Shown one piece after another: positions 1,774 through 24,338 of a DNA stretch of 32,777 nucleotides; positions within the stretch are counted from its first letter, which is position 1; every line of letters begins with the position of its first letter. Both the position numbers and the translations under genes were made by a program. Origin of the DNA: Desulfobacterales bacterium (lineage in GTDB: Bacteria > Desulfobacterota > Desulfobacteria > Desulfobacterales > JARGFK01); NCBI GenBank assembly GCA_029211065.1, contig JARGFK010000049.1:1-32777 (forward strand), in the 5' to 3' direction. Below the pieces are notes generated by a model. It did no database searches, was not told the DNA's origin, and saw only the letters and a program-made list of their open reading frames with translations.

Positions 1774-4131
1774 ATGTTACGCATCGTAATTGTTTCTATT
1801 CTGTTATTTGGCAGTATATCGGCCCAGGCGGCCGTCGTCGAATATGACCTCACAATCGAGCACCAAATGGTGAATATGACCGGGTTGCATGCAAACGGCA
1901 TGACAATTAACGGCAGCATCCCCGGTCCGACCCTGCGCTTTAGCGAAGGCGATACGGCGCATATTAAAGTGCATAACAAAATGAACGTGGATACGTCCAT
2001 CCACTGGCATGGCCTCCTGGTGCCGCCGGATATGGATGGGGTCCCTTACATCAGTTTTCCGCCCATCAAACCGGGTACGACTTTTGTTTATGAATTTCCG
2101 ATCCGTCAAAGCGGCACCTACTGGTATCATTCACATACCAACATGCAGGAACAAAGCGGGATGTACGGTGCTATTGTCATCAGTGCGAAACATGCCCACC
2201 TGACGCCGGATCGGGATTATGTGATCCTCCTGTCGGACTGGACGGATGAAGACCCTCATCAGGTCTTGCGGACGCTTAAACGGGGAAGCGAGTGGTATGC
2301 CATCCAGAAAGGAAGCGGCCAGAGTATTCTGGGAGCTGCCCGTCTCAAGTCTCTGGGCGCCTACTTCAGTCGAGAACTTCAGCGAATGCCGCCTATGGAC
2401 ATTGCCGATGTCGCCTATGACCGGTTTCTTGCCAACGGCAAACCGGAGTCCAGCCTTTTTGCGAACCCGGGCGAGACCGTGCGCCTCAGGATTATCGACG
2501 GTTCCGCCACCACCTATTTCCACCTGGATTTTGCCGGGGGGCCCATGCAGATAATCGCTGCGGACGGTCAGGATGTTGAACCCATCGAACCGGGACGATT
2601 GCTGATTGCTGTCGCCGAAACCTATGATGTGCTGATCCGGGTTCCTGATAAAGGCGCCTATGAATTCAGGGCGACTTCACACGATGGTTCCGGATATGCG
2701 ACCGTCTGGATCGGGTCCGGCAATAAATATCCGGTTTCTGATGTACCCCGGCCCAATCTCTATCATGGCATGGGTGAATCGGATATAGCGCGCATTTTTG
2801 CACTGACGCCGGCAGGGTCCATGGGTATGCCGGACAGTATGGTGTCTGCGGGCATGTTCGATAAACCCGGCATGAGCGGAATGGACCATGCCCAGGATAT
2901 GCAGGGGATGGTACACAGCCCGGAACCTTCCGGCATGAAGATGAAAAGCATGGACCATGGTCATGGGGGAGACAAAACCCTTCGACATGAAGCCATGCCC
3001 ATGAAATCGGAAGGTTCTCCAAAACAAGCCATGACCCATGATGATCATAAAATGCAAATGCCTTCGCAGGGTTTGGGGGGCGGCAAAAGATATGGTCTAA
3101 ATTTTAGTTTTCTGGGGACCGATGTGTCCGCTCATAAAGACCTTGCAATGGACGGCACGGATGCGAGCCGGCCATGGCCTCCTTATGAAAAACTGCGGGC
3201 GGTTAAGCCGACCCATTTCCAAAAGGATAAAACGGTACGCGAGATCCGGCTGACCCTTGATGGCGATATGGAACGGTACGTCTGGTTTCTAAACGACAAA
3301 CCCCTCTCAGAATCGGATTCCATCCACATACGGGAGGGTGAAACAGCACGTTTTATCATGATCAACCGTACCATGATGCACCACCCCATGCACCTGCATG
3401 GACATTTTTTTCGTGTGTTGAACGGCCAGGGCGATTATGCGCCCCTGAAACATACCGTTGACGTTGCCCCCATGTCCACCACCGTCATCGAGTTTAACGC
3501 CAACGAAATCGGGGATTGGTTTTTTCACTGTCATTTGCTGTATCACATGAAAAGCGGCATGGCCCGCATGATTCACTACGAAGACTTTCCCCTCGATCCA
3601 AAGCTGGCCAACATCCGGCAGAATCTTTATAATGATCCCTGGTATTTCTTTGGCCGGGCGGACGCCCTTACAAATATGACCGAAGGTTTTCTGAGGCTGT
3701 CCGATACCCGCAATATCATTACCGCGGATTGGGAAGCCGGCTGGCAAGGTGTGGATGATACGGAGTGGGAAACGATATTTACCTGGGACCGTTACGCCAA
3801 CCGTTTTTTTAATCTGTTTGCCGGTCTGGATGTTCTGGGGCAGGGGCAGGCTTCGGATCATACCCGTGGCATCCTTGGACTGCAATACCTGCTGCCGTTT
3901 AACATTGAATCCCGTCTCTGGGTAGATACCGACAGCGGCGCGCGGGTGTACCTTGAAAAATCATTTCATTTGACCCCGCGCCTGGAACTGCTGGGTGAAG
4001 TCCAATATGACACCCATGAACAATGGGAAGGGAGCGTGGACCTGCTTTATACCCTTACGAAAGGGATTTCCCTGGTGGGCAAATGGCATTCTGACTTTAG
4101 CTGGGGCGGGGGGGTACAGGTTCGCTTTTGA
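1774..4131 (+). CDS. copA: CopA-type multicopper oxidase fused to a C-terminal CopB-like outer-membrane domain
   Basis: A 785-residue protein; the start has AGGGGGA about 9 nt upstream. Residues 1-19 form a Sec-type signal peptide ending near AQA. Copper-oxidase cupredoxin domains follow. Copper-ligand motifs are HWHG (about 77), WYHSH (about 117), HPMHLHGHFF (about 535) and HCHLLYHMKSGMARM (about 582). A Met/His-rich insert at about 347-430 (many M-x-M and MDH units) is typical of CopA/PcoA copper-resistance oxidases, which oxidise Cu(I) in the periplasm. Unlike standard CopA (about 600 residues), it continues for about 185 residues in a strand-rich region ending GGGVQVRF, with a terminal Phe as in outer-membrane beta-barrel proteins, resembling the end of CopB. 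The fusion reading is inferred from pattern. No copper sensor is encoded nearby. Confidence 0.85.
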   Translation: MLRIVIVSILLFGSISAQAAVVEYDLTIEHQMVNMTGLHANGMTINGSIPGPTLRFSEGDTAHIKVHNKMNVDTSIHWHGLLVPPDMDGVPYISFPPIKPGTTFVYEFPIRQSGTYWYHSHTNMQEQSGMYGAIVISAKHAHLTPDRDYVILLSDWTDEDPHQVLRTLKRGSEWYAIQKGSGQSILGAARLKSLGAYFSRELQRMPPMDIADVAYDRFLANGKPESSLFANPGETVRLRIIDGSATTYFHLDFAGGPMQIIAADGQDVEPIEPGRLLIAVAETYDVLIRVPDKGAYEFRATSHDGSGYATVWIGSGNKYPVSDVPRPNLYHGMGESDIARIFALTPAGSMGMPDSMVSAGMFDKPGMSGMDHAQDMQGMVHSPEPSGMKMKSMDHGHGGDKTLRHEAMPMKSEGSPKQAMTHDDHKMQMPSQGLGGGKRYGLNFSFLGTDVSAHKDLAMDGTDASRPWPPYEKLRAVKPTHFQKDKTVREIRLTLDGDMERYVWFLNDKPLSESDSIHIREGETARFIMINRTMMHHPMHLHGHFFRVLNGQGDYAPLKHTVDVAPMSTTVIEFNANEIGDWFFHCHLLYHMKSGMARMIHYEDFPLDPKLANIRQNLYNDPWYFFGRADALTNMTEGFLRLSDTRNIITADWEAGWQGVDDTEWETIFTWDRYANRFFNLFAGLDVLGQGQASDHTRGILGLQYLLPFNIESRLWVDTDSGARVYLEKSFHLTPRLELLGEVQYDTHEQWEGSVDLLYTLTKGISLVGKWHSDFSWGGGVQVRF

Positions 4132-4492
4132 CCGGGTTCAGGTTTTCCTCCACCTGCGAGACACCATCCAATTCAGCGATCAGCGGCGGCAGATCATTTT
4201 GAACGGTTCTCCAGAGGATATCCAAGTTAATATCAAAATAGGCGTGAACCAGTCGGTGACGCATACCGACAATGTCTTCCCATGGAATCCCTGGCAGTTG
4301 AGCCCGTCCGTCTTGGGAAACTTGAAAAGCCGCTTCGCCGATGATCTCGATTGTTTTGACAAGAGCCAATACCAACTTGCGATCTCGGTTCAGATCGACG
4401 CGAGTTCTGCCCTGCACGAATTCAATGGCCTCATGCGCCGCTTCCAGCATATGCAGCAATCGAATTGTGTCATCCTTGCGCATACTGTACAT
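4097..4492 (-). CDS. hepT: HepT-family ribonuclease toxin (HEPN, DUF86)
   Basis: A 131-residue HEPN protein. The RX4HXY active site is visible as RHRLVHAY, and the helical core carries the family block [11 protein letters not shown]. HepT toxins cleave RNA and are held inactive by the MntA antitoxin, which AMPylates a Tyr near the active site. The start at 4492 overlaps the end of mntA by 23 bp and has AGAGG just upstream; an ATG at 4483 is an alternative. The last 11-12 codons (tail with [12 protein letters not shown]) are read antisense through the end of the multicopper oxidase gene, so the native C terminus may have been replaced when these DNAs were joined. The active-site region is intact. 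Confidence 0.88.
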
Positions 4493-4766
4493 CTGCCTCT
4501 TCCAATACCTGTTGGCGAAAATGTCGGCTCAGATCTTCCGGTGTTCGAAGGTCTGCCTTCCGTCCAATCAACTCTGAGAGCTCTCTTTCCATTCGCGCTA
4601 TCCCGAAAAGACCGGGTATGTGATCCGGTTCAAACTCAACCAGAAAATCCATATCGCTGTTCCCATTAAAGCTGGAATATAAAGTTGAACCAAAAATAGC
4701 CATGCGTTGAATGTGGTGTTTCCGACAGAATGCCGCCAGGTGCTGTTTAGGCACATTTATGTTCAT
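4470..4766 (-). CDS. mntA: MntA-family nucleotidyltransferase antitoxin
   Basis: A 98-residue minimal nucleotidyltransferase. The signature GS-X10-DXD is complete ([15 protein letters not shown], about residues 26-40). In the type VII MntA-HepT systems such proteins transfer AMP from ATP to a Tyr of the HEPN toxin. It precedes hepT and overlaps it by 23 bp, the usual antitoxin-first order, suggesting translational coupling. GAGGTG lies about 6 nt before the ATG. The pair sits between a multicopper oxidase and a gene-poor AT-rich stretch, as expected for a horizontally moving module. Confidence 0.9.
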
Positions 4767-5319: not shown

Positions 5320-5565
5320 TTATTTACGGGCCTTATCATGTTTAAACCCTTGGACTACCCACCAGAGCCCCCAGGAACATACCAAAGGCAGCACGCCCAT
5401 CAAAGCGAATTTCCGGAGAAACGCGGATAAGATAAAAAATTTATTCGGCTCTACAATGTAGATAAATGAGAATATGGGCCAGAAAACAGACACGAGGATC
5501 GCAAGCCGCAATGTTTCAGGCAATTGCCGGCAGCGCTCATTTAAGGTGTTTATGCTGATCGCCAT
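5320..5565 (-). CDS. Small membrane protein of unknown function
   Basis: An 81-residue frame with a short N-terminal polar segment and two hydrophobic stretches long enough to span the membrane (about residues 20-39, LAILVSVFWPIFSFIYIV, and about 51-71, KFALMGVLPLVCSWGLWWVV), then a basic tail GFKHDKARK. No family is recognised. The Shine-Dalgarno match is weak (GAAGAA). It lies 64 nt downstream of the selenoprotein gene on the same strand, so the two may be co-transcribed. Residue composition, with Trp-rich membrane helices and a positive C terminus, supports a real gene, but this rests on one sequence. Confidence 0.55.
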   Translation of the reverse strand: MAISINTLNERCRQLPETLRLAILVSVFWPIFSFIYIVEPNKFFILSAFLRKFALMGVLPLVCSWGLWWVVQGFKHDKARK

Positions 5566-5613
5566 AAGATTTCTTCAAAAGACCAATTTAAATTAATATC
5601 AGACCGACCCGGT

Positions 5614-5634
5614 CATGAGATCAAACATCTCATG
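5614..5634 (-). terminator. Hairpin overlapping the selenoprotein stop codon
   Basis: CATGAGAT and ATCTCATG form a perfect 8-bp stem around a 5-nt loop, and the terminal UGA codon (5630-5632) lies in the stem. There is no U-tract after it, so it is not a canonical intrinsic terminator. It could protect or attenuate the transcript before the downstream small membrane gene. Confidence 0.4.
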
Positions 5635-5833
5635 TGCCGCCGTATCCTATGGTCACTTTTTGACCTTCCACGATAACAGGGACCAGGCGTTTTCCTTTTG
5701 AAAACTTAAGCATCTGATCAAGTGTTTTCGGGTCTTTTTTCACATCAAGATATTCATGACCCTTGAGAGCCTCCCTGGCTCTGTTGGTATAGGGTCACCC
5801 GGACTTTCCATAGATCTTTATTTTTTCAACCAT
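5630..5833 (-). CDS. Glutaredoxin-like selenoprotein (UXX-star type) with in-frame UGA
   Basis: A 67-residue product read from ATG 5833 to TGA 5630, with an in-frame TGA at codon 13 (5795-5797). The N-terminal part reads KIYGKSG-U-PYTNRAREAL, a thioredoxin-fold first strand followed by a redox motif in which Sec takes the first Cys position and Thr the last (U-P-Y-T). The C-terminal part has the cis-Pro block RLVPVIVEG and ends GYGGT, as in glutaredoxin-like proteins. AGGAGGG stands 5 nt before the ATG. A SECIS-like hairpin directly follows the UGA. Standard gene finders would stop at the UGA and miss it. By family resemblance it is a cytosolic thiol/selenol redox protein; its partner is unknown. 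The alternative, a pseudogene with a nonsense mutation, is disfavoured by the hairpin, the strong ribosome-binding site and the intact frame. Confidence 0.87.
5757..5797 (-). promoter_or_regulatory. Bacterial SECIS element
   Basis: Starting at the UGA itself, a lower stem TGACCCT pairs perfectly with AGGGTCA. An upper stem AGAGCC pairs with GGCTCT around the G-rich loop AGGGA. The upper stem begins 12 nt after the UGA, close to the roughly 11-nt spacing known for the Escherichia coli fdhF SECIS. This is the expected signal for SelB-directed selenocysteine insertion. Confidence 0.85.
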
Positions 5834-5838: not shown

Positions 5839-5845
5839 CCCTCCT
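5839..5845 (-). promoter_or_regulatory. Ribosome-binding site of the selenoprotein gene
   Basis: AGGAGGG lies 5 nt upstream of ATG 5833, an almost perfect anti-Shine-Dalgarno match. It fixes the start upstream of the in-frame UGA, which argues that translation is meant to reach that codon. Confidence 0.85.
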
Positions 5846-7482: not shown

Positions 7483-8234
7483 CTAGAAGCTGTTCAGCAG
7501 CTTGACAGCCATGATCAACATGGCAACGGCAAGTACGATCCGGATTGTCTTTTCTCCCTTTCGCACCGCAATCTTGGCGGACCACCAGCCGCCGGCGGCG
7601 TTTCCGACAGCAAGGGCGATGCCGTATTTCCAGTTGATATTCCCGGTCCAAGCAAAAACCATCAGGGCAGGGATTGTGTAGATGAAAAAAACGGACGCCT
7701 TGTGCATGTTGATGCGCACCAGGTCCATTTTCAGTATATGACTCAAGGCGCCGATCATTAAAAAACCGATGCCGACCTGGTGAAACCCCCCGATGAATCC
7801 GATAACCAGCATGACAGGGTAAATCAGCCATCCGTGGGCCGGTACGGCGGCCTGCCCGGTGCTGATTGTTTTCGACCTGGGATGATAACGGTCAATAAAA
7901 TAGCAAAGATGAAGATCGCCAGCACTCTTTGGAAAAGGACGCTGTCAATTTTTACCGCCAGGATAGCGCCCGCAACAGCGCCGGGAAGGGCGAAAGCCGC
8001 CAGTTTCAGGCTGGTTTTAAATTCAAAGAATTTTTCCTGTTTAAAGGACAGGATGCTGGCAATGGTCTGGATAAAAATAGCCAGGCGATTGGTGCCGTTG
8101 GCCAGGGGGCTGTCCAGGCCGAAGAAGATAAGCAGGGGAAGGGAGATGGCCGAGCCGCCGCCCGCCATGACGTTCAGGAATCCGGAAATTATCCCGACGA
8201 CAACCAGTAAGAGGAGAAAGAGGATATCCTGCAT
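7483..8234 (-). pseudogene. TauE/SafE-family sulfite exporter-like permease, frameshifted
   Basis: Two adjacent frames together make one TauE/SafE protein of about 250 residues. The first (8234 to 7824) has the N-terminal repeat with the typical segment GFLNVMAGGGSAISLPLL and then runs into an unrelated tail. The second frame resumes upstream of 7812 and gives AHGWLIYPVMLVIGFIGGFH followed by the second repeat, ending MAVKLLNSF. A one-nucleotide shift near 7845-7885 would join them. This family moves sulfite, sulfonates or other organic anions across the inner membrane. No strong slippery heptamer is present at the join, so a real mutation or a sequencing error is more likely than programmed frameshifting. 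The start ATG at 8234 has only a weak ribosome-binding site. Confidence 0.8.
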
Positions 8235-9271: not shown

Positions 9272-11188
9272 TCAATTGCGGCGAATGTATTTCCCGATTC
9301 CTTCTCCGGTGACAAGTCGACCGTTTTCGAAGACCTTGATGCCGCGAACATAGACGCTTTTAACCGCCCCCCTTACTTGCATTCCTTCGTAAATACTGAA
9401 GTCCGAAGCGGTCAGAAGATTTTTTGCCGTAATTTCCCAGACACGATCTTCATCGATGATGACAAAATCGGCATCCGAACCCGGCAAGAGGGTTCCTTTG
9501 CGAGGATAGAGGCCGAAAGCCCTGGCGGCATGGAAGCTGGTGATGCGCGCCAGCCTCTGCAATGACAAACGTTGGCGGGCAACCCCTTCGCTGAGCAGCA
9601 ACGGAAGAATGAGGCCGGTGCCGGGAAATGCCGACCGGGCGGTCCAGATGTCGACCGGGTTTTTCTCAGTGAGGGTAAACGCCACGTGGTCGGAACCGAT
9701 GGTTTCGATCAGGCCTTCCTCCAGCGCCTTCCAGACGGCAGTCTGGTCGTCGCCGGTCCGTATCGGCGGCATGACTTTGGCCGGCACGCCGACATCGGTG
9801 TCGGTGGTGAGGGTCAAATAATGCGGCCCGGTTTCGGCAATAAAATCCGTACCGCAAAGACGCGCCTCTCTCAATGCCCGGATGGCGGTGCGTGAACCGA
9901 TGTGCGGAAAATACACCGGTACATGATAGGCCCGCGACAAAACCGCCACCTGTCCGATGGCAAGGGCTTCGGCCAGAGCGGAGCAGGCGAAATTCCAGGC
10001 AGCCAGACCGTCAAGTCCGGCCCGGCGAGCCTCCTGAATCCCCTGGTACAGGACTTCACCATCTTCGCAATGAACACTGAGACGGCAGCGGGCCGGGATT
10101 TTCTGCAACATGCGAAAAGTCTCATGCAGAATGTCCGCGCTGACGTTTACGTCGTGGGGGTCCGTCTGTTGGGCGCCGGGGCGAAGGTCCATGAGGATGC
10201 CACGGCCGAGGGGCCCCTTCATGTTCAGGTAGATTTTATACGAGGTGATGCCGAAGCGTTGAACATATTCGGGAATTTCGGCAATCTGGGCGTGATTGAA
10301 AAGTGTCAGATGCAGCGCATAGTCCTGATAGTGCAGACGGTTTGCAAGATCAATCTGCTCGTCCACCCGATTTAGGTAGGATGCCGGATGTCGAAAATAC
10401 CGGATAAATGTGGTAACACCGCCGCTGATGCCGAAGGCCGACTCGGCCCGGATGCGCTCCTCGATGGGCGGCACCCAGCCGTAATGGATGTGCGGATCAA
10501 TGAGACCCGGAAGGATTACACCGCCCGCTGCGTCCAGAACTTCTGCGCCGGGGGGCTCTGCCGGGGAAGCTCCAACGGCGCTGATCCGGCCGTCAGTTAT
10601 CACCAGATTGCAGGGCATTGCCCCTGTTTCCGGCAGGACAACAACGGCATTTTTCACGACCAGGTTTTGAGCCATGCGTGGTCTCCCAATGATGGACGTT
10701 TCGCGAAAATCGGAATGGCCGGTGGGCCGGTCTTTCACGAAGTCCGGCATGAGCTGATTGACAAGGGTCATGCAGTGCGCCAGGCCCAGAAGCCGTTGGC
10801 CGGGACGTTCCTCAAAAAGTTCTTTCAGTACCGATAAAATGCAGGAATTGTTCGGGCCGTGGCCGCTGATGAAGAGGATCTTCCGGAACCCCATTTTTTC
10901 AATGCCGCTGCAAAGCTCTCTAACGACGGACGAAAAGGTCTCGTCGGAAAGAATGGCCCCTTGGAATGCCGGATGTTCGCTGACGCCGTATGCCAGCGCG
11001 GGAAAGACAACCGCACCGGTTTTGCGGCCGACCCGCCTTGCCACTTCACGGGCAGTGGCGGCATCCGTTCCCATGGGAAGATGGCTTGCGTGACGTTCAG
11101 TTGAACCGGCCGGAACCAGGGCAACGCCGATTCGTTTTGCACGGTCGCGCAATTCGTCCCAAGACAGGCCTGCAGCCTCAGCGCTCAT
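9272..11188 (-). CDS. Fusion of a truncated creatininase-like domain and a dihydropyrimidinase/hydantoinase-family amidohydrolase
   Basis: One 638-residue frame. Residues 1-171 resemble creatininase-family amidohydrolases: GSTERHASHLPMGTDA (usual GSxEQHGPHLP), ISGHGPNN (usual NGHGGN) and GHSDFRETS (usual HAGxxETS). Then they stop, about 70 residues short of the family length. From Met172 it is a complete hydantoinase/dihydropyrimidinase/allantoinase-type enzyme: GLIDPHIHYGW (metal HxH), SYKIYLN (likely carbamylated Lys), SVHCEDGE and VYFPHIGS (His ligands), and GSDHVAF (Asp). Such enzymes hydrolyse cyclic amides. ATG 11188 overlaps the upstream cupin stop (ATGA), supporting translation from the fused start; however GGGAG stands 8 nt before Met172, so the hydantoinase may also be made alone. 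The family resemblance is clear, the substrate is not. It is the last gene of its operon. Confidence 0.85.
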   Translation of the reverse strand: MSAEAAGLSWDELRDRAKRIGVALVPAGSTERHASHLPMGTDAATAREVARRVGRKTGAVVFPALAYGVSEHPAFQGAILSDETFSSVVRELCSGIEKMGFRKILFISGHGPNNSCILSVLKELFEERPGQRLLGLAHCMTLVNQLMPDFVKDRPTGHSDFRETSIIGRPRMAQNLVVKNAVVVLPETGAMPCNLVITDGRISAVGASPAEPPGAEVLDAAGGVILPGLIDPHIHYGWVPPIEERIRAESAFGISGGVTTFIRYFRHPASYLNRVDEQIDLANRLHYQDYALHLTLFNHAQIAEIPEYVQRFGITSYKIYLNMKGPLGRGILMDLRPGAQQTDPHDVNVSADILHETFRMLQKIPARCRLSVHCEDGEVLYQGIQEARRAGLDGLAAWNFACSALAEALAIGQVAVLSRAYHVPVYFPHIGSRTAIRALREARLCGTDFIAETGPHYLTLTTDTDVGVPAKVMPPIRTGDDQTAVWKALEEGLIETIGSDHVAFTLTEKNPVDIWTARSAFPGTGLILPLLLSEGVARQRLSLQRLARITSFHAARAFGLYPRKGTLLPGSDADFVIIDEDRVWEITAKNLLTASDFSIYEGMQVRGAVKSVYVRGIKVFENGRLVTGEGIGKYIRRN

Positions 11189-13339: not shown

Positions 13340-14230
13340 ATGATCAGACTCAAGGCATTTTCCTATTTTGAACCCGCTTCCCTCAAAGAAGCATCGGAAA
13401 TTCTAACCCAACATAAAGGCGAGGCCTATCCCCTGGCCGGGGGAACCGATCTTCTGGTGCGGATGAAACGAGAAGCCATCCGGCCGGCTGCGCTGGTTAA
13501 TCTCAAGCGCATCAGGGAGCTTAATGGGATCCAAAGCGAGAAAGACGGCGGCATGCGGATCGGTGCCCTGACCACGATTGCCGATATCGAGAACTCTACG
13601 GTGGTTCATACAAGCCACCCGGTCCTGGCACAGGCGGCCGGTGTCTTGGGCGCGCAGCCCCTCAGAAATTTGGCCACCATCGGCGGCAATATCGGAAGAG
13701 CATCGCCGGCGTCGGACATGGCGCCGTCTCTCATGGTCCTTCAGGCCCGGGTTGCCACTGAAGGGGCGTCCGGCCCCGGTGAGCGGGAAATCGACAAGGT
13801 TTTTGCGGGACCCGGTTCAACAACCCTCTCTGATGGCGAGATCATGACCGCCTTCTATTTTCCTGCCATGGCGCCTGCCACCGGCGCCGCCTACCTGAAG
13901 ATGGGCCGTCGCAGCGGCGGCGGCGACTGTGCCCTGGTGGGGGTTGCCGCCTTGCTGACCCTGGGATCGGGTGAGGCCAGGGCGGTCCGGATCGCCATGT
14001 CTTCGGTGGGTCCCACACCCCGGCGGGCCAATAAGGCCGAAGCAGTCATCCTGTCGGGAACGATTACGGAAGAACGCATGAGAGATGCCGCCCGCGTGGC
14101 CGCGGAGGAAGCGGCGCCCATTACCGACATGCGCTGCAGCGCCTCCTATCGAAAAGAAATCATCAAGGTACTGACATTTCGGGCGCTGCAGGAGGCAAAT
14201 CAAAAGGCTCAAGGAGGGCAGGCAACGTGA
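13340..14230 (+). CDS. Xanthine-dehydrogenase-family FAD-binding subunit
   Basis: A 296-residue flavoprotein subunit (CoxM/HcrB type). FAD-binding motifs are AYPLAGGTDLLVRMKR (about residue 30) and ATIGGNIGRASPASDMAP (about 113), and the C-terminal third has the CO-dehydrogenase flavoprotein block SSVGPTPRRA. It would carry electrons from the 2Fe-2S subunit to an acceptor. CTGGAG lies about 9 nt before the ATG. Its stop overlaps the GTG start of the Fe-S subunit (GTGA), so this is a classic medium-small-large operon. It is transcribed divergently from the amidohydrolase operon. Confidence 0.92.
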   Translation: MIRLKAFSYFEPASLKEASEILTQHKGEAYPLAGGTDLLVRMKREAIRPAALVNLKRIRELNGIQSEKDGGMRIGALTTIADIENSTVVHTSHPVLAQAAGVLGAQPLRNLATIGGNIGRASPASDMAPSLMVLQARVATEGASGPGEREIDKVFAGPGSTTLSDGEIMTAFYFPAMAPATGAAYLKMGRRSGGGDCALVGVAALLTLGSGEARAVRIAMSSVGPTPRRANKAEAVILSGTITEERMRDAARVAAEEAAPITDMRCSASYRKEIIKVLTFRALQEANQKAQGGQAT

Positions 14231-14697
14231 AAATATCCATCGATATCCATGTAAACGGGGAACAATACCCGGCGGAAGTGGAACCGCGAACGACCCTACT
14301 GGAATTTCTGCGCGGAACACTTCATCTGACGGGAACCAAGGAGGGTTGCGGCCTCGGAGATTGCGGCACTTGCATCGTGCTGCTTGACGGAAAACCGGTT
14401 AACTCCTGTCTGGTCCTGGCGGTGGATGCCAATGGGCGGCGGGTCACCACCATTGAAGGCCTGGCCGAAGACGGAAAACTCCATCCCGTGCAGCAGAGCT
14501 TTATCGACAACGGCGCGGTCCAGTGCGGCTTCTGTACGCCTGCCATGATCCTGACCACCAAGGCGCTTCTGGATAAAAATCCGGATCCTGCCGAGGGAGA
14601 GATCAAACAGGCCCTGGGCGGTATTCTCTGCAGGTGCGGCTCTTACCAGAAAATTCTCAATTCGGTTCAGGCGGTGGGCAAAGGGGAGCGGAAATGA
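14227..14697 (+). CDS. Xanthine-dehydrogenase-family 2Fe-2S subunit
   Basis: A 156-residue protein with both 2Fe-2S clusters of the family. The plant-ferredoxin-type N-terminal cluster uses Cys41, Cys46, Cys49 and Cys61 (GCGLGDCGTC...NSC). The C-terminal cluster uses Cys100, Cys103, Cys135 and Cys137 (QCGFCTP...CRCGSYQKI). It starts with GTG, overlapping the FAD gene, and its stop overlaps the ATG of the large subunit. It links the molybdenum site to FAD. There is no signal peptide, so the complex is probably cytosolic. Confidence 0.95.
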   Translation: MKISIDIHVNGEQYPAEVEPRTTLLEFLRGTLHLTGTKEGCGLGDCGTCIVLLDGKPVNSCLVLAVDANGRRVTTIEGLAEDGKLHPVQQSFIDNGAVQCGFCTPAMILTTKALLDKNPDPAEGEIKQALGGILCRCGSYQKILNSVQAVGKGERK

Positions 14698-17021
14698 TGT
14701 CTCAGAAGGGTTCAGCAGGGTATGTAGGCAAACGGGTGTTGCGGGTGGACGCGCCCGCCAAAGTGACCGGAAATGCCGTATACGGGATTGATATCGAACT
14801 TCCCGGCATGCTCCATGGTGCAACGCTCAGAAGCCCCTACCCCCATGCCGATATCGTTGAGATAGATACTTCCGCTGCGTTGAAGGCGCCGGGGGTCAGA
14901 GCGGTTGTGACGGGAAAAGACTTTCCCTGCTATTTCGGCGATATGGTCAGGGATCAGCCCTTTCTGGCCGTTGATCGGGTGCGCTTTGTGGGCGATCCGG
15001 TTGCGGCGGTTGCGGCCGAAACCGAAGCCCAGGCCCTGGAAGCGCTGGAAAAAATTCGGGTGAAATATAGAGAACTGCCGGCGGTTTTCGATCCCCGCGA
15101 GGCAATGGCCGAAGGCGCGCCGCTGATTCATCCGGATTTTGAAAAATATACGCGCAACATTCCCGCCAGCATGGTTCCCCATACGAATATCTGCGTTTCC
15201 CGCAAATTCAGCCTCGGGGATGTGGAGAAAGGGTTTGCGGAAGCGGATGAGATTTTCGAGGATTCCTTTTCGGCCCAGGCCCTGTCCCATGTGACCATGG
15301 AGCCCCATACCGCAATCGCTCAGTTCACGCCCCTGGACGGGCATTATACCGTCTGGTCGCCTAGCGACAGACCCCAGCGGCTGCATAAGGAACTGGCGGA
15401 TGCGCTGGGCCTTGCCCATACCCGGATCCGGTTTATCGTCCCATATGTGGGCGGCTCTTACGGCGGCAAGAATACGCTGCGGGCGGAAGCCATTGCCGTG
15501 GCCCTGGCCCGGTTCACCCACGGCCGGCCGGTCAAAGTGGTATTCTCCAGGGCCGAGGCGCTGACCGCCACCCAGACCCGTCTGGCTGCTTTTATGAAGC
15601 TCACCACCGGCGTCAGAAAAGACGGCACCTTTACCGCCCGCCGGGCTGAGATCGTCTGGGACAACGGGGCATATATATCCAACGCACCCGGAGTCGCCAA
15701 CCGGGGCGTCCTGACCATCCTGGGTCCCTACCGCATTCCCAACCTGGATCTGGTCTCCAGGCTCGTCTACACCAATAAGGAGACAACCGGTTCTTACCGG
15801 GGCTTCGGCACCACCCAGGTAACCTGGGCGTGCGAGGTGCAGATGGATATCATTGCCGCAAAACTGGGCATTGATCCCCTGACGATACGGCTTAAGAACG
15901 CGTATGTGGAGGGCGACGCTTACATCAATGGCCAGATTATGCGGGATGTCCGGGTAAAAGAAACCATTGAAAAAGCCGGCCGTGAGATCAAGCTTGAAAA
16001 AGACAGCACAAGTCCTTCCCCGACACGGCGCCGGGGCAAGGGGATTGCAACGATGCTAAAGAGCACGGCGACGCCCACCGATTCTTTTTGCGCCATCAAG
16101 GTCGATATGGACGGGGGGGTGACCGTCTTCAGCAGTTCATCGGAAATCGGGGCCGGCGAACAGACGATGATGGCCCAGATCGCGGCCGATGCGGTGGGGG
16201 TTCCGCTTTCGGCTGTTTCCGTTCCCAACCCGGATACTGCGATAACGCCTTACGACCACGGGGTTTCCTCCAGCCGGACGACCTATCATATGGGCAACTG
16301 CGTTCAACAGGCCGGCCGGGATGTACGCAAGCGGCTCCTTGGCATAGCCGCCGAAGTATTAGCGACAGACCCGGAGCGCCTGTCGCTGTTCGAGGGAAAC
16401 ATCATTGAAACAGGCGTCGGCCAACGAATGACCCTGAAGGAACTGCTCTCGAAAAAGTTCAACAACAAGAGCGGGGCCATTTTCGGCGAGGGACACTTTA
16501 CACCTGCCGGCAACCCGGTCCTGGAAGCCCGGGAGGGGCTTAAGGGGATCAGCAGCATTTTCTGGATGTTTGCCACCCACGCCGCTGAAGTGGAGGTGGA
16601 TACGGAGACCGGGGTTGTGAAGGTCCTGAACGTTGCAGCCGCTCACGATATCGGCCGGGCCATTAATCCGGTGGGGTGCGAGCAGCAGATAGAGGGGTCG
16701 GTTATTTTGGGGATTTCCAACACGCTCTTTGAGGAATTTAAAATGGAAAACGGGCGGATCTTAAATGACAGCCTTTCCGATTACAAGCTGGCCACCATGG
16801 AAGATCTGCCCAAGATCGTTTCCATCTTCGTGGAAGCCGAACCGGACAGGGAAGCCCTTGCGGTTGTCAAGGGGATCGGCGAGCCGGCTGCCGCCGCCAC
16901 CGCACCGGCCATTGCCAATGCCATCTACAATGCGGTGGGGGTTCGCATCAAGGATCTGCCCATTACGCCGGACAAGGTTCTGGCGGCGCTGCGGGAGAAA
17001 GACAATCAGAAGGGCCGTTAA
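14694..17021 (+). CDS. Xanthine-dehydrogenase-family molybdenum-binding large subunit
   Basis: A 775-residue Mo-pterin subunit. Family motifs are GGSYGGKN (about residue 260), GSYRGFGTTQ with the conserved Arg (about 365), the SSEIGAGEQT block (about 483) and KGIGEPAAAATAPAIANAI near the C terminus, whose Glu is the catalytic base. Such enzymes hydroxylate carbons next to ring nitrogens, aldehydes or thioesters with water as the oxygen source. The start is placed at ATG 14694, which overlaps the Fe-S subunit stop and has GGGGAG upstream; an upstream ATG at 14634 would give a long overlap. It is closely similar to the second large subunit at 26940-29246. The substrate is unknown. Confidence 0.92.
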   Translation: MMSQKGSAGYVGKRVLRVDAPAKVTGNAVYGIDIELPGMLHGATLRSPYPHADIVEIDTSAALKAPGVRAVVTGKDFPCYFGDMVRDQPFLAVDRVRFVGDPVAAVAAETEAQALEALEKIRVKYRELPAVFDPREAMAEGAPLIHPDFEKYTRNIPASMVPHTNICVSRKFSLGDVEKGFAEADEIFEDSFSAQALSHVTMEPHTAIAQFTPLDGHYTVWSPSDRPQRLHKELADALGLAHTRIRFIVPYVGGSYGGKNTLRAEAIAVALARFTHGRPVKVVFSRAEALTATQTRLAAFMKLTTGVRKDGTFTARRAEIVWDNGAYISNAPGVANRGVLTILGPYRIPNLDLVSRLVYTNKETTGSYRGFGTTQVTWACEVQMDIIAAKLGIDPLTIRLKNAYVEGDAYINGQIMRDVRVKETIEKAGREIKLEKDSTSPSPTRRRGKGIATMLKSTATPTDSFCAIKVDMDGGVTVFSSSSEIGAGEQTMMAQIAADAVGVPLSAVSVPNPDTAITPYDHGVSSSRTTYHMGNCVQQAGRDVRKRLLGIAAEVLATDPERLSLFEGNIIETGVGQRMTLKELLSKKFNNKSGAIFGEGHFTPAGNPVLEAREGLKGISSIFWMFATHAAEVEVDTETGVVKVLNVAAAHDIGRAINPVGCEQQIEGSVILGISNTLFEEFKMENGRILNDSLSDYKLATMEDLPKIVSIFVEAEPDREALAVVKGIGEPAAAATAPAIANAIYNAVGVRIKDLPITPDKVLAALREKDNQKGR

Positions 17022-17155
17022 GGGGAGAAAGGGGTTCAAGGGTTCAAGGTTCAAGGGTTTGGAAACACTCTACGTTTTGTTTGAATGACACGGTGCTTTG
17101 ACGCTAACATGTTAAAGATTATACTTTTGAGCCTCCCGGCCTCCCAGCTTATTTT
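17022..17155. repeat. Intergenic repeat sequence (GGTTCAAGG type)
   Basis: A tandem run of GGTTCAAGG-like units (about 17030-17055) is followed by a degenerate stretch and the block GCCTCCCGGCCTCCCAGCTTA. The same order occurs at 11632-11818. The gap separates convergent genes and has no clear intrinsic terminator. Confidence 0.5.
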
Positions 17156-18211
17156 TTATTTAGCTTGAACGGTGGTTTTTTCTCCCGTCCGGGCCGATTC
17201 TATTGACGTGCGGATCAGGGCCAGGGCTGCCAGCGCGCTTTCCCCGTCGGTTTCAGGCTGCGCTCCGGTCCGGATGCAGTCGGCAAACTCTTCGATTTCT
17301 TCCAAGATGGGGTTTCCCTGCTGCAGCGGGATATTTTCCGCCCCGGTTTTTCCCTTTTTGTATATCTGCAAAGAGGTGTCCGCATCGATCATTTGCCACC
17401 GGAGCAGATACGCCTCAAAAGGAAGTTCCTGAAGCGTAACCGTGCACTGCAGATTGGCTTCCGTTCCGTAAACGTAAACCCAGAGGGCTTTGGGCGACGC
17501 ATAGTTGGAACCCAGGTACCCCAGCGCGCCGGATCCAAACCGCATAATGGTGGTGGTGACGTCTTCCACCGGCGCCGGAATATAGAGTTTGGAAAAAAAA
17601 GAAAAAACGTCCGTGATGGGTCCGAAAAGATAATTAAACAGATCGGCATGGTGGATGCCCAGTGTCATCAGTGCGCCGGCCGGGCATCCGCTGTCGTTGC
17701 CGGACCAGCGGAAAGCGTCCGGCGTCAGGGCAAACCCCAGGTTCTGGGAAAAATTGGCGTCCACCTGGATGAAATCCCCAATGGCGCCGGCCAGCAGCAG
17801 CTCCTTGATTTTTCGGAAACCCGCCAGGCGGCGCAGATGCTGGCCCACCATCAGGACGACACCGGCATCGCTGCAGGCCGCGATCATTTTTTCCGCGTCG
17901 GCAATGGTATTGGCAATGGGTTTGTCCACGAACACGTGCTTGCCATGCCGGGCGGCCATTAGGGTCTGATCGGCATGCAGGGCATTTGGGGTGGTCAAAT
18001 GAACCCCTTCAACATCATCCCTTTTGAGGACGTCTGCCAGACTTTTTTCCTGATCACAGCCGAATTTTAGGCTGAACGCTTCTCTTTTCGAGACAATCGG
18101 ATCAAAACAGGTGACGAGTTTGACCCGCTCGCTTTTTACCATGGCGTTGCCGATAGCGCCCGACCATGCGCCGGTTCCGATAATTGCCAGCCGGACTCGT
18201 TTCTGTTTCAT
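17156..18211 (-). CDS. Gfo/Idh/MocA-family oxidoreductase
   Basis: A 351-residue NAD(P)-dependent dehydrogenase. The N-terminal Rossmann motif is GTGAWSGAIG (about residue 12), and the catalytic-lysine motif appears as DKPIANT (usual EKP) at about 95. The C-terminal domain has the substrate-side His in GIHHADLFNY. Members oxidise or reduce sugar-like alcohols, cyclitols or other hydroxy compounds. It starts 4 bp after the upstream cupin, is the last gene of the long minus-strand block, and converges with the xanthine-dehydrogenase-type operon. Confidence 0.88.
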   Translation of the reverse strand: MKQKRVRLAIIGTGAWSGAIGNAMVKSERVKLVTCFDPIVSKREAFSLKFGCDQEKSLADVLKRDDVEGVHLTTPNALHADQTLMAARHGKHVFVDKPIANTIADAEKMIAACSDAGVVLMVGQHLRRLAGFRKIKELLLAGAIGDFIQVDANFSQNLGFALTPDAFRWSGNDSGCPAGALMTLGIHHADLFNYLFGPITDVFSFFSKLYIPAPVEDVTTTIMRFGSGALGYLGSNYASPKALWVYVYGTEANLQCTVTLQELPFEAYLLRWQMIDADTSLQIYKKGKTGAENIPLQQGNPILEEIEEFADCIRTGAQPETDGESALAALALIRTSIESARTGEKTTVQAK

Positions 18212-18215
18212 TGCT

Positions 18216-18581
18216 TTATTTCACTTCAACAAAGTCGGCCCCGACCGGCGGGCAGGTAAAGAATTCAAGGTAGCGCAGATCCTGTTCCGATTGGTTGATG
18301 ATGGCGTGTTTTTCGCCGGCAGGGATAAACATCACATCTCCGGCCTTGACGGGGAATTCTTCACCCTCAACGATTTCAATCCCATGTCCGCTGATGATCA
18401 TCAAAACGGATTCGCGGGTTTTATGGTAATGATACGGCACTCGGCTGCCGGGAGGCAGCAGGCCGAACATGCCGCCCATGTCTTTGGCCTTGTCCTCAGC
18501 CGTTACGATATTGGGCCGATGGAGCTGGCCCGGCGTCGGGTTTTTCATCCGAATGTAGTCTTCGGTGTGGAATAATTTCAT
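18216..18581 (-). CDS. Cupin-domain protein
   Basis: A 121-residue single-domain cupin with metal-binding motif 1 as YHYHKTRESV (about residues 50-60) and motif 2 as PAGEKHAI (about 90). ATG 18581 is chosen because GAGGAGG lies about 6 nt upstream; an upstream GTG in frame would contain that site. It precedes the Gfo/Idh dehydrogenase with a 4-bp gap and follows the DapA-like lyase gene. The function is unassigned; sugar-phosphate or keto-acid isomerase activity is one possibility. Confidence 0.83.
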   Translation of the reverse strand: MKLFHTEDYIRMKNPTPGQLHRPNIVTAEDKAKDMGGMFGLLPPGSRVPYHYHKTRESVLMIISGHGIEIVEGEEFPVKAGDVMFIPAGEKHAIINQSEQDLRYLEFFTCPPVGADFVEVK

Positions 18582-18718
18582 GTTGAACCTCCTCACTCAG
18601 TCCTGCTGTCTCGTTTTTACCCGTAACTCCTGCATCTTCTCAGCCTTGTTCGGTTGCGGATCGACGGGGACGTCGCTCCCTACAACGTCATCGCCACGCA
18701 ACCCGTGACGCGCAACGC

Positions 18719-19603
18719 CTATATCATACCGGCTGCCTTCGCCGCCGCCCGGATGCTTTCTTTATCCTTTTCTTTCAGGGACAGCAAAGGTTTGCGGGGA
18801 TCGCCGCCGTGAAAGCCGCCCAGCTCCATGGCATACTTGACGCCGGCAACGCCGAAACTGCCGGACACCGACTGGTTGAGAACATAGAGGGTGTTATGGA
18901 GCTTGAGCGCAGCTGCCGCATCGCCGGCGAGGTGGCGGTCATACAGGTCACAGGATGAAGCGGGAAACGCATTGGCCAGAGATACGACGCCTCCGGTGGC
19001 CCCCAGCATCATGGAAGGGAGCAGGGTGCTCACCGTTCCGGCCAGGACGTTGAAGTCGGCCCCCTGGGCGGCCAGCAGGTAGCTGCTCATGTTGCCGGTG
19101 GAAGAGTCCTTCATGCCGGCAATATTGGGGTGGGATGCCAGAGCCTTGACCACTTTTGGGGACACCGTGACGCCCGTAAATCCTGGGGCGTTGTATATGA
19201 TGACGGGAACCGTGAGGGCCTCGGCCACCTCGGTATACATGGCGATGAGGGCGTCATCGGTCATCTGCTTTTTGAAATAAGAAGGTGTTACCACGGAGAC
19301 GCAGTCCACCCCCATCCCGGCGACTTTTTTGCTGAAGCTGATGGTCTGCCGGGTGGATTCATATCCGGTGCCGGCCATGACCATCTGGTGGTCGCCCCTT
19401 TCGGCCAGGACCACTTCGAGCAGACTGATTTTTTCACTCTCGGTCAGGCTTTTGCTTTCACCGTTGCTGCCCAGGACAAAGATGCCGGCCAGCGGGGTTT
19501 TGTTGTATTTCTGTATGTTCGATTTAAATTTTTTCAGAGAAACTTCTTCATTGACGAACGGGGTGGTGATGGGGGCAAAAACGCCCGCAAGCTTGGTTTT
19601 CAT
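18719..19603 (-). CDS. DapA/N-acetylneuraminate-lyase-family aldolase
   Basis: A 294-residue class-I aldolase-fold protein. Motifs are GVFAPITTPF at the N terminus, VLGSNGESKSLTESEK (usual GTTGE), PVIIYNAPGFTGV with the active-site Tyr (about 137), and NIAGMKDSS with the Schiff-base Lys (about 165). The family includes dihydrodipicolinate synthase, keto-deoxy-sugar-acid aldolases and hydrolases acting on 2-oxo acids, so the present member may cleave a 2-oxo-acid intermediate of the locus. Since biosynthetic dapA is usually elsewhere, a catabolic role is inferred from its neighbours. GGAGG lies 7 nt before the ATG. Confidence 0.9.
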   Translation of the reverse strand: MKTKLAGVFAPITTPFVNEEVSLKKFKSNIQKYNKTPLAGIFVLGSNGESKSLTESEKISLLEVVLAERGDHQMVMAGTGYESTRQTISFSKKVAGMGVDCVSVVTPSYFKKQMTDDALIAMYTEVAEALTVPVIIYNAPGFTGVTVSPKVVKALASHPNIAGMKDSSTGNMSSYLLAAQGADFNVLAGTVSTLLPSMMLGATGGVVSLANAFPASSCDLYDRHLAGDAAAALKLHNTLYVLNQSVSGSFGVAGVKYAMELGGFHGGDPRKPLLSLKEKDKESIRAAAKAAGMI

Positions 19604-19671
19604 TCATTACCTCCAACTTTAGTGTTTGTTACAGTATAAAATACCTAATTCTCAGAGCCTATTAATTGGTA

Positions 19672-20679
19672 CTATCGCCCCACCAGATGCTCCCAGCGTT
19701 TATTTTTCAAAACGTCGCGATTGGCGATATTCCGGGGTTCCTTTCCCGTCAGAACATCAATGACGCATTCGGCCGCTTCTGTGGCCATGCGGATGACGCA
19801 TTCACGGGTCAGGGCAGCCGTGTGCGGGGTCAGGATGACATTGTCAAGTTTCAGCAGCTTGCTGTCGGCGGCAGGCGGTTCCTGTTCCAGAACATCCAGG
19901 CCGGCGCCCCCTATCTTTTTTTCCTGCAGCGCCTCGGCCAGCGCAGCTTCATCAACAACCGGGCCGCGGGAGGTGTTGATCAGGAGCGCCTCCGGCTTCA
20001 TCATGGCGAACTCTTTGGCGCCCACCGCATGGCGTGTCCCTTCCGTCAGGGGGATATGGATGGAAATAATATCCGACTGGCTGAAGAGGGTTTCGCGGGC
20101 GACAAATTTGACGCCATTCCCGGCAGATTGTTTTAATTCTTCCGGCAGGAAGGGGTCATACGCCAGCACCTTCATCCCGAAGATCTGGCGGCAGGCCTCT
20201 CCGAGGGTCGAGCCGATCCGGCCGAAACCCATCAATCCCAGGGTCTGGCCGCGCAGGTCCCGGGGCAGGTTTTGGAAACGAACTGAAAACTGGCCGGAGC
20301 GAACCGAGCGGTCCATCAGGGAAAGTTGCTTGGACAGCGCCAGCATGAGGGACAGGGCGTGCTCCACCACACTGATCGTGTTGACGCCGACGTTGGAGGT
20401 GACGATCACCCCCCTTTCCGTCGCTGCCGCAACATCGACATTGTCAACGCCGCCGCCGGTGCGGGCGATAATCTTCAGATTTTCAGCCCGGGAGATCAGG
20501 TCCCGGGTGATTTTGATGCCGGTGCGAAGAACGATCGCTTCGGCGTCGGGCAGCAGGGGGATTACGGTTTCAGGCTTCGGATTCCGGGCCGTGACAATTT
20601 TACAGCCGGCCCCTTCCAGCAGAGCGATGGCTTCAACTTCTATCGGCTGCGGCAGCAATACGCGTTTTAATTTGCTCAA
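19672..20679 (-). CDS. D-isomer-specific 2-hydroxyacid dehydrogenase
   Basis: A 335-residue NAD-dependent dehydrogenase related to phosphoglycerate dehydrogenase. The nucleotide motif is GLMGFGRIGSTLGEA (about residue 145). The catalytic triad is present: Arg in NTSRGPVVDE, Glu in DVLEQEPP, His in LTPHTAALT. It interconverts a 2-hydroxy acid and a 2-oxo acid. The start is taken as TTG 20679 because GGAG lies about 9 nt upstream; an in-frame TTG at 20697 would put that site inside the coding region. It sits directly upstream of the DapA-like lyase, whose substrate would be a 2-oxo acid, which fits a two-step sequence. Confidence 0.9.
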   Translation of the reverse strand: MSKLKRVLLPQPIEVEAIALLEGAGCKIVTARNPKPETVIPLLPDAEAIVLRTGIKITRDLISRAENLKIIARTGGGVDNVDVAAATERGVIVTSNVGVNTISVVEHALSLMLALSKQLSLMDRSVRSGQFSVRFQNLPRDLRGQTLGLMGFGRIGSTLGEACRQIFGMKVLAYDPFLPEELKQSAGNGVKFVARETLFSQSDIISIHIPLTEGTRHAVGAKEFAMMKPEALLINTSRGPVVDEAALAEALQEKKIGGAGLDVLEQEPPAADSKLLKLDNVILTPHTAALTRECVIRMATEAAECVIDVLTGKEPRNIANRDVLKNKRWEHLVGR

Positions 20680-20731
20680 GGTTTTTTCTCCTTTCAATTT
20701 TTCCTAGTGCATCAGCGCTTTCAGCAAAGAC

Positions 20732-21001
20732 GAACCGCGAAGGCGCTAAGTACGCGAAGTTTTTTGCGCGAATCGGGTAGCCGGCCGGGAAAATAATGGC
20801 CGGCTGTCAATTCGCGCAAAGAAGTCTACCCTAAAGATTGATTCCTTGGGGTGCCGTAATCCATCTTTCATGCAATCATTCGAATTATAGCGCTTACTTC
20901 AATTTGTTTGCAAGGCATGGCTGTGTAACGTGTCCTGAGTTTCTCTTACAGGGTCGGTACAGAAAATAAACCCCCTTGCGTCCTTTGCGCCTTCGCGGTT
21001 C
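20732..21001. repeat. MITE-like element with 28-bp terminal inverted repeats
   Basis: GAACCGCGAAGGCGCTAAGT (start of the left end, 20732-20759) is matched in inverted orientation at 20974-21001 with a few mismatches. The right half, about 110 bp, is similar to 24222-24328. The interior carries a nested hairpin at 20763-20820. It encodes no protein and fills the 390-bp gap between the racemase-family gene and the hydroxyacid dehydrogenase gene. Confidence 0.6.
20763..20820. repeat. Nested inverted repeat
   Basis: An 11-bp outer arm TTTGCGCGAAT / ATTCGCGCAAA encloses a 7-bp inner arm GCCGGCC / GGCCGGC with an 11-nt loop. It lies in the leader of the hydroxyacid dehydrogenase gene and may be a folded RNA or a partial terminator in either direction. 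Confidence 0.6.
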
Positions 21002-21069
21002 AGCCCTTTAACTGTTCTTCCAAACTTTTTATTTAACCCGCAACGCGTGACGTGAAACCCGTAACTCTT

Positions 21070-21942
21070 TCAAAAAACCTTTTTTCGGCGCCATTTTTTG
21101 GGGCGTTCGCCGGGGAACTTCAAACCGCTGGCGTCAACCCCCAGGTTGACGAAGAGCTTGGCCAGCACAATGGCGCTGCTGTATCCTTCCAGAATCGGGA
21201 TTTCCCAGCCGATGTCACCCAGGCGCTTTTGCAGAAAAGACTGGAGCCAGAAAACATCCGAGCAGCCGAAGGTAATGACCTCGGCGCCGTCTTCCTCGAT
21301 GGCGGCGACGGCTTCCCTGACGGCGCGCTCCACCGCTTCGGAGGGTTCGCCGCGCAGGGCCTTGTCACGCTCCTGGTCGATGGTGCTCTCATCCTCATAG
21401 CCGGCCCGGCCGTGATAGAAGTTGATGTTGCGGATGGAAGCGCAGCGGTCGGTAAACCGGTGCTTGACCACGAGTTCATAATAGAACATATTATGAACCT
21501 CGGTAAAATCGATGATGCTGAACTTGTTGCCCAGCATGGAGGCAATGTGCATCTGGGAAAAGGCGCAGGACGTCACCGGTATGCCGAACGGCCGGGCGAT
21601 CTCGCGTGCTTCCATGAATCCGGGTTCACCGCCGCCCAGAAGGATAATGGCGTTATATTTGCCGCTTTCACAGGCTTCACGCACGATGGGCAGGCGGGCT
21701 GCGGCCACGTGGCAGAATTCTTCACGGGTTTCCACCGCCCAGTCTCCGTAAGGGGCGACCGGGCCGGGGTGAATGTCCCACTCAACGTCTTCCAGCAAAG
21801 GCCGGATATTGAGATAGTCCATTCGCAGCAGTTTTTCTTTGGACAGACCGGGCGTGTGAAACTTGTCGGCATGCCGGGCGTTCTTGGGGAGCTGAAAAGG
21901 CTGGATGAATAAAAAACGGTACTTCTTTTTCTCCTCTGACAT
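21070..21942 (-). CDS. Asp/Glu/hydantoin racemase-family protein
   Basis: A 290-residue protein. Two candidate catalytic Cys lie in the expected places: one in PVTSCAFSQMH (about residue 133) and one in VITFGCSDVFWL (about 236). The first follows a Gly-rich turn LLGGGEPG. The family contains hydantoin, aspartate and glutamate racemases, maleate isomerase and arylmalonate decarboxylase. Presence of a hydantoinase-type gene in the same locus makes a hydantoin-related racemase plausible but not proven. GAGGAG stands about 7 nt before the ATG. It is 78 bp downstream of the SDR gene. Confidence 0.75.
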   Translation of the reverse strand: MSEEKKKYRFLFIQPFQLPKNARHADKFHTPGLSKEKLLRMDYLNIRPLLEDVEWDIHPGPVAPYGDWAVETREEFCHVAAARLPIVREACESGKYNAIILLGGGEPGFMEAREIARPFGIPVTSCAFSQMHIASMLGNKFSIIDFTEVHNMFYYELVVKHRFTDRCASIRNINFYHGRAGYEDESTIDQERDKALRGEPSEAVERAVREAVAAIEEDGAEVITFGCSDVFWLQSFLQKRLGDIGWEIPILEGYSSAIVLAKLFVNLGVDASGLKFPGERPKKWRRKKVF

Positions 21943-22020
21943 GACTTTCTCCTCTATAATTATCCATTAAAAAAAGACGGGATGTGCCAACGGATTATCC
22001 CCGAAAAGGGCTTGAAGCAC

Positions 22021-22797
22021 TCAGCGAAGATACCGCCCGCCGGAGATATCGATGGTCTGGCCGGTGATATAGCCGGATTCGTCGGATGCCAGAAACACCA
22101 CGACGGCGGCGACTTCTTCCATGGTTCCCAAACGGCCGAGGGGGATGGCCGCCAGCACTTTATCCTGGGCGTCCCCGCCTTTGGCATCCCAGAGGGCCTG
22201 AATGCGGTCGCCGGTCAACGTGACCGTGGGCGCCACCGCGTTAACGCGAATGTTGGATTTTCCCCAATCAAAGGCAAGCTGCCGCGTCAGCCCCTCGGTG
22301 CCGGCCTTGGAAGCCGTGTATTGGACGCCCGCCAGCGAAGCCCGCCAGTGCCCGGCCAAAGCCGACATATTGATGATGGACCCGCTCTTCTGTTGCGCCA
22401 TGAAGGGGATTACCGCCTGGCAAAAGAAAAAAGCGCCTTTGAGATTTACATCGACAACCAGGTTCCAGTCTTTTTCCTCGATTTCAGCGAGGAGATGCGG
22501 CGTCCGCAAGGCCCCGCCGGCGTTGTTGACCAGAATATCGATATGTCCCCACAACCCGTGTACTTTTTTGACAAACTGGACAACGTCGGATTTATTTCGG
22601 ACATCGATCTTTTCTCCGATAACGCGCTTGCCGCCTTGGTCCAATTCTTTGCAGGCCGAATCCACTGCCGCCTTATCGATGTCGGCGATGGCCACATTCG
22701 CGCCCTCCTGTAAAAGGGCCTTTGCGATTGCCAACCCCATTCCCTGGGCCGCCCCGGTAACGATTGCCGCTCTATTTTCGAGCCGTTTTAACGTCAT
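22021..22797 (-). CDS. Short-chain dehydrogenase/reductase (SDR)
   Basis: A 258-residue classical SDR: cofactor motif TGAAQGMGLA (about residue 15), structural NNAGG (about 90), catalytic Ser in INMSALAG (about 143) and YTASKAG with the catalytic Tyr and Lys (about 156). The C terminus GQTIDISGGRYL is typical of 3-oxoacyl-reductase-like SDRs. It oxidises or reduces a hydroxyl/keto group with NAD(P). Its ATG overlaps the stop of the Tm-1-like gene by 4 bp (ATGA), so the two are translationally coupled, and GGAGG lies just upstream. Confidence 0.92.
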   Translation of the reverse strand: MTLKRLENRAAIVTGAAQGMGLAIAKALLQEGANVAIADIDKAAVDSACKELDQGGKRVIGEKIDVRNKSDVVQFVKKVHGLWGHIDILVNNAGGALRTPHLLAEIEEKDWNLVVDVNLKGAFFFCQAVIPFMAQQKSGSIINMSALAGHWRASLAGVQYTASKAGTEGLTRQLAFDWGKSNIRVNAVAPTVTLTGDRIQALWDAKGGDAQDKVLAAIPLGRLGTMEEVAAVVVFLASDESGYITGQTIDISGGRYLR

Positions 22798-24026: not shown

Positions 24027-24221
24027 TTTTTGCCCTGGGTTACGATCTTTAATTTGAATTCCCTAGTTTAATCAGGGGTACAGATATCACAAGTTGCAAC
24101 CGGCAAGTCAAGAGAATCTTGCCTGTTTACTTTTCAGAAGCGCCGTGGCGAGACTGTTCGAGAAGTTGCCGCACCCAATCAGTGCCAGATTGATCATTTT
24201 GTTCTGATTCACCTCTTAATC

Positions 24222-24328: not shown

Positions 24329-24338
24329 TTCTTTTTCA

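Follow-up and report, generated by a model that had tools for sequence, protein, structure and literature searches.

A predicted UXX-star family 1 double selenoprotein, with a conserved hairpin after each UGA codon, in a Desulfobacterales genome

We found that a short minus-strand gene in a Desulfobacterales draft genome almost certainly encodes a double selenoprotein of NCBIfam family NF041114, with one selenocysteine (Sec) at residue 13, in a UPYT motif, and a second at residue 68, third from the C-terminus. It is a further member of a known double-Sec family. The gene lies in a window of 32,777 nt (the whole stretch of DNA analysed; contig JARGFK010000049.1, assembly GCA_029211065.1). With TGA translated as U at codons 13 and 68, the product has 70 residues: MVEKIKIYGKSGUPYTNRAREALKGHEYLDVKKDPKTLDQMLKFSKGKRLVPVIVEGQKVTIGYGGTUDV. 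The frame from ATG 5833 with a TGA at codon 13, the segments YGKSG-U-PYT, VPVIVEG and GYGGT, and the AGGAGGG upstream of the start (5845-5839), all named in the original prediction, were recovered when the sequence was read again. That prediction described a 67-residue product with one Sec and a stop at 5632-5630; we read the TGA there as Sec68, which extends the product to 70 residues, and both this codon and the second SECIS element after it (~5593-5624) had been overlooked. The features of the locus, in the order of transcription, are as follows.

5839..5845, minus strand: ribosome-binding site AGGAGGG, 5 nt ahead of ATG 5833, read directly
5621..5833, minus strand: UXX-star family 1 selenoprotein gene, 70 codons plus stop, from the TGA=U translation and the NF041114 match
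5795..5797, minus strand: UGA codon 13, predicted Sec, opening the UPYT active-site motif (residues 13-16)
5757..5797, minus strand: SECIS 1, apical stem AGAGCC/GGCTCT (5782-5777/5771-5766), loop AGGGA (5776-5772), lower stem TGACCCT/AGGGTCA
5630..5632, minus strand: UGA codon 68, predicted Sec, opening the tail U-D-V-stop
5621..5623, minus strand: true stop TGA, third codon past TGA68
5593..5624 (approximate), minus strand: SECIS 2, apical part 5602-5614 with stem GACCG/CGGTC (5614-5610/5606-5602) and loop GGT (5609-5607)
5320..5565, minus strand: hydrophobic ORF of 81 aa, next downstream, from the ORF list

The family assignment comes from profile searches. The product matched NF041114 (UXX-star selenoprotein family 1) with 109.5 bits against a cut-off of 72 (E = 7.1e-32), across positions 1-70 of the 70-position profile, which bears out the kinship with UXX-star proteins proposed earlier, and the subfamily model NF041212 with 82.3 bits, above its cut-off of 66. 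Three other UXX-star models remained below their cut-offs: NF041211 (48 of 100 bits), NF047338 (55.1 of 97) and NF045501, the HUGP/GUXX-star fusion (51.6 of 325). The Pfam Glutaredoxin model PF00462 scored 37.8 bits (gathering cut-off 22.9), and the glutathione-dependent glutaredoxin 3 model TIGR02181 failed (32.3 bits, cut-off 90). The name ‘UXX-star’ probably stands for Sec, two residues and then a stop.

The table of a 2026 review (PMC13188914) names NF041114 ‘Distant Grx-like protein 1 (UXX-star selenoprotein family 1)’, with UxxT and two Sec, and credits the protein to its reference 61, a 2008 ocean survey; a passage of a 2022 review (PMC9312934) gives the same name with UxxT. The available passages of the 2008 survey (PMC2398784) describe a Grx-like family with UxxC and contain no UxxT entry, so the two-Sec statement for the family goes back to the table in PMC13188914. 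There, in the sections on these proteins, function is given as a suggestion only, namely metal binding or an unknown substrate for this group, and a 2025 mSystems paper is cited for other UXX-star families. Compared with the NF041114 family, the window protein shares the full-length profile match, UxxT, two Sec and the U-X-X-stop ending; it has D-V after Sec68, where 95 of 150 listed members have G-V, and it falls in the shorter of two length classes (29 of 150 listed), with otherwise no difference of substance. The Sec glutaredoxin with UxxC in the Grx row of the same review’s table also has Sec at the N-terminal active-site position and a glutaredoxin fold, but it has one Sec and UxxC, whereas the window protein has two Sec and UxxT.

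Homologues were collected by a profile search of 389 genomes of the class, 171 of which held a match above cut-off; the aligned set (n = 150) consists of the window gene and 149 other matches listed, and because the list was ranked by a selenoprotein model, members with Cys at residue 68 may be under-represented in it. Among these listed genes, 142 have TGA at codon 13 and 8 have a Cys codon there, so that Sec or Cys occupies the position in 150/150 aligned members and in all 149 homologues, as the original prediction had anticipated for a selenoprotein. Codon 68, defined as the last Sec or Cys within each aligned core, is TGA in 150/150 listed members, and 142 of them share the positions of both TGAs. 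The distance between the Sec codons divides the listed genes into a short class of 29, including the window gene, and a long class of 121.

The codons that follow TGA68 are informative in their own right. In the listed set, a stop comes after two further codons in 146/150 genes and after three in the other 4, and when stops are counted across the 21 codons after TGA68, codon 3 accounts for 146 and the counts at the remaining 20 positions range from 0 to 19. The residue pair after Sec68 is GV in 95 listed genes and RV in 22; the remainder have various other pairs, DV being confined to the window. The second residue of this pair is Val or Ile in 147/150, with mostly third-base variation (its codon is G-T-N in 132/150, with the third base varying). 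Together, the stop peak and the third-base variation are strong evidence that TGA68 is decoded as an amino acid and that translation continues through the next two codons.

A second set of 28 loci was obtained by scanning named genomes with alignment A1 and a pattern in which residue 13 must be Cys; these loci are therefore uninformative about how frequent Cys13 is. Their labels include Deltaproteobacteria, Nitrospirae, Acidobacteria, Planctomycetes, Brocadiia, Pelotomaculum, Firmicutes and Anaeromyxobacter, among others, and three look like contigs of the first set (the proteins of L190, L196 and L204 equal those of L061, L058 and L078). Codon 68 is TGA in 26 of the 28, Cys in one (L198) and Ser in one (L199). 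In the last, at 2986-3222, Ser (TCA) replaces the C-terminal UGA beside a hairpin that can still fold, which points to a recent Sec loss or a sequencing error. Judged from these alignments, Sec68 is not strictly invariant outside the 150, and Cys counterparts exist for both Sec sites; among the members examined, the C-terminal Sec is the more constant of the two, with Sec or Cys at residue 13. Since homologues combining Cys13 with Sec68 occur in several phyla, two selenols are dispensable for the family’s role. An earlier protein scan of genome contigs confirmed no relative, and the 22 glutaredoxin-like loci returned by a viral scan carried CPYC or CPFC motifs and scored low, at 16 to 23 bits on our own profile; no UXX-star ending was seen among them.

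Bacterial SECIS elements are hairpins just past the UGA, with a small loop and a G within its first two positions. Both hairpin loops at this locus, AGGGA in SECIS 1 and GGT in SECIS 2, fit that form, and the hairpins after both UGAs are conserved as RNA. Around SECIS 1, the window sequence forms a perfect two-part hairpin, TGACCCT...AGAGCC-AGGGA-GGCTCT...AGGGTCA, with a folding energy of -17.1 kcal/mol (z = -2.63; 4 of 200 shuffles folded at least as well). We assessed its conservation with synonymous shuffles that keep each protein and the codons of each alignment column, after removing identical sequences (139 of the 142 Sec13 genes kept). Across these 139 distinct genes, pairing in the apical stem was 0.719 compared to 0.643 in the shuffles (z = 11.6), none of 1,000 synonymous shuffles paired the inner three apical base pairs as well, in the short and long class alike, and the closing pair showed U-A / C-G exchange. 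The lower stem, tried as a conserved element, was rejected (0.326 compared to 0.327 in shuffles, and no better within either length class); all 7 of its pairs form in the window alone of the 142 Sec13 genes, and 5 or 6 pairs form in 11. Of the ‘textbook’ two-part hairpin described earlier, then, both stems are present in the window and the apical stem is conserved as RNA, but the lower stem TGACCCT/AGGGTCA is not conserved.

The closing pair is formed in 137/142 Sec13 genes among the matches listed. In genes with Cys13 it is formed in 1 of 8 in the class set and 15 of 25 in the named set (16/33 together), with L190, L196 and L204 dropped from the count as L061, L058 and L078 are already in it. 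Its apparent loss with Cys13 is clear within the class and partial outside, and so is not general. A DNA search with 29 bases of SECIS 1, allowing up to 3 mismatches, found the window alone in 291 genomes, and an Rfam scan of the window returned no family at cut-off.

The second hairpin provides RNA-level evidence at the other end of the gene. In the window it reads GACCG-GGT-CGGTC, its loop begins 23 nt from the T of UGA68, and it covers the stop codon and the 3' untranslated region. Across 149 distinct genes (149/150 after removing an identical sequence), the best hairpin after UGA68 scored 15.4 on a simple pairing scale, compared to 9.8 in dinucleotide shuffles; a control position at +90 in the same loci scored 9.7 (148 genes, the other two being near a contig end). 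In 128/149 genes, the distance between the T of UGA68 and the start of the loop was 19 to 24 nt, and a G was among the first two loop bases in 126/149. Because SECIS 2 lies mostly beyond the stop codon, protein coding cannot explain its conservation. Taken alone, the window’s SECIS 2 is modest (two cuts gave z = -0.83 and -1.59), and L196 and L204 have weak second hairpins. Fisher and Mann-Whitney comparisons of the hairpins treat sequences related by descent as independent, which overstates their values.

The host genome contains the Sec pathway that the original prediction had implied: selA (610.3 bits), selB (391.6), tRNA-Sec (selC, 77.2) and selD (374.7) were all found above cut-off in a draft assembly of 4.94 Mb (269 contigs, 4.29% contamination). 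Given these genes and a SECIS element for each UGA, SelB would use Sec-tRNA to recode the pair of UGAs within a single short mRNA. The window’s gene was the only one in the host genome to pass the NF041212 cut-off. We also observed three selD genes above cut-off (L052, L053 and L054; 374.7, 369.6 and 368.4 bits), each with one in-frame TGA, which may reflect triplication or mixed bins.

To examine the fold, we discarded a single-sequence structure model (pLDDT 48) in favor of one built from an alignment of 29 sequences, with Cys substituted for Sec. This model (mean pLDDT 87.1, and 88 over residues 61-70) contains the strands and helices of the glutaredoxin core and lacks the last helix, because the chain ends at residue 70. 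Its best solved match in Foldseek, and the sole one at E <= 0.001, was the archaeal glutaredoxin 3ic4 (E = 2.9e-4). VIA-align gave Z up to 8.9, with 49 of 50 listed alignments stopping at residue 66, the second of two glycines, and one at residue 67. The profile of alignment A1 also matched solved glutaredoxins, best 2klx (5.7e-7). The glutaredoxin-like fold proposed earlier is thus upheld by both PF00462 and the structure model. Ordinary glutaredoxins such as E. coli Grx3 and its kin continue from this GG turn into a glutathione-binding C-D-D stretch and a last helix, and dithiol glutaredoxins usually carry CxxC. The window protein shares Pfam, profile and model matches with glutaredoxins (PF00462; E. 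coli Grx3, NrdH), but has UxxT, Sec in place of Cys and a chain end at residue 70.

As the alignments stop at the second glycine, Sec68 would sit close behind the turn that holds glutathione in glutaredoxins. We propose that the glutaredoxin fold would end right after the GG turn, that the C-terminal tail would bring Sec68 near residue 13, and that Sec13 and Sec68 would form and resolve an intramolecular diselenide. On this analysis, the protein could be a glutathione-independent redoxin in which Sec68 acts as the built-in resolving group for residue 13, a reading that we hold tentatively, at somewhat below an even chance. A more specific version is more doubtful still: a glutathione-free glutaredoxin cut short at its glutathione turn, in which Sec68 would replace the glutathione sulphur and cycle with Sec13 via a diselenide, with Sec68 essential and residue 13 either Sec or Cys.

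The main rival to the redoxin mechanism is that the two selenols, or a thiol and a selenol, bind a soft metal (mercury, copper or arsenic, for example), which would make the protein a chaperone or scavenger of metal instead of a redoxin. This is unlikely, at roughly three chances in ten in our estimation, and has points on both sides. Metal binding is the suggestion made for the group in the relevant part of PMC13188914, and a multicopper oxidase gene lies in the window at 1774-4131; that gene is ~1.5 kb away, however, and clusters with nothing in the flanks examined for the 149 other listed genes, and at most 4 of the 29 short-class genes share any one neighbor cluster.

Overall, the neighborhood says nothing firm about function. 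Flanks were examined over ~1.5 to 3 kb, or a shorter distance where the contig ended, and clusters were named from one scanned representative each. In the long class, a LOG/lysine-decarboxylase-like gene (PF03641) lies downstream in the same direction in 80/121 genes (for example, L171), at a median of 105 nt, and a functional link between it and the long-class UXX-star gene is possible; upstream are enzyme-I-like (75/121, opposite strand), HPr (46) and SmpB (43) genes. Within the flanks examined, none of these neighbors occurs beside the 29 short-class genes, the window’s included, and we therefore draw no function from them. The window’s own neighbors are unshared, save for a metallo-hydrolase-like gene near one other locus (L102), and the 81-aa ORF matched nothing in Pfam or NCBIfam and clustered with no gene in the flanks examined for the 149 other listed genes.

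Several other features of the window were observed. A TauE/SafE-like transporter appears to be split over two frames (7483-8234, minus strand), through decay or assembly error: ORF 7483-7812 covers positions 134-237 only of the TauE/SafE profile, and ORF 7824-8234 resembles the first half by eye. ORF 9272-11188 (minus) encodes, in a single chain, a creatininase domain (residues 8-167) and an amidohydrolase domain (224-616). A HepT-like RNase and an MntA-like nucleotidyltransferase (4097-4766, minus) are likely a toxin-antitoxin pair, with scores above the Pfam and below the NCBIfam cut-offs. The region 13340-32483 contains molybdenum hydroxylase subunits, a molybdopterin oxidoreductase and a TRAP-type transporter with an NMT1-like protein; in this cluster, Pfam matches were obtained for ORFs 24853-26943, 26940-29246, 29341-31260 and 31452-32483, and the remaining ORFs were named by eye.

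Two further explanations concern the gene itself. One is that only UGA13 is read as Sec, UGA68 being a stop and the UDV tail unmade. In its favor, TGA normally signals a stop and the window’s second hairpin is weak alone, but the constancy of TGA68 among the matches listed, the stop three codons on, the Val or Ile at the second tail position, the conserved hairpin past UGA68, an NF041114 profile that covers the tail and the Cys68 homologue L198 together make this very improbable. The other, a dead or mis-assembled glutaredoxin with chance TGAs, might draw on the 269-contig draft and the apparently split TauE/SafE-like gene nearby, and is scarcely credible given two TGAs placed alike in 142/150 listed genes and conservation at both the codon and the RNA level. 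Taken whole, the best explanation of the locus as a double selenoprotein is very probably sound, with the redox mechanism proposed for it held more tentatively.

These results indicate that the gene is real and that its family, with two Sec, is already catalogued. A reading of raw sequence caught a true selenoprotein gene that needs UGA recoding, and was right in kind while incomplete in detail. At the RNA level, the evidence is for a 213-nt gene with two distinct SECIS elements, of which the second lies largely beyond the coding region. What is constant among the members examined is the C-terminal Sec more than the active-site Sec, which leads to a testable prediction about which residue would be the reactive one.
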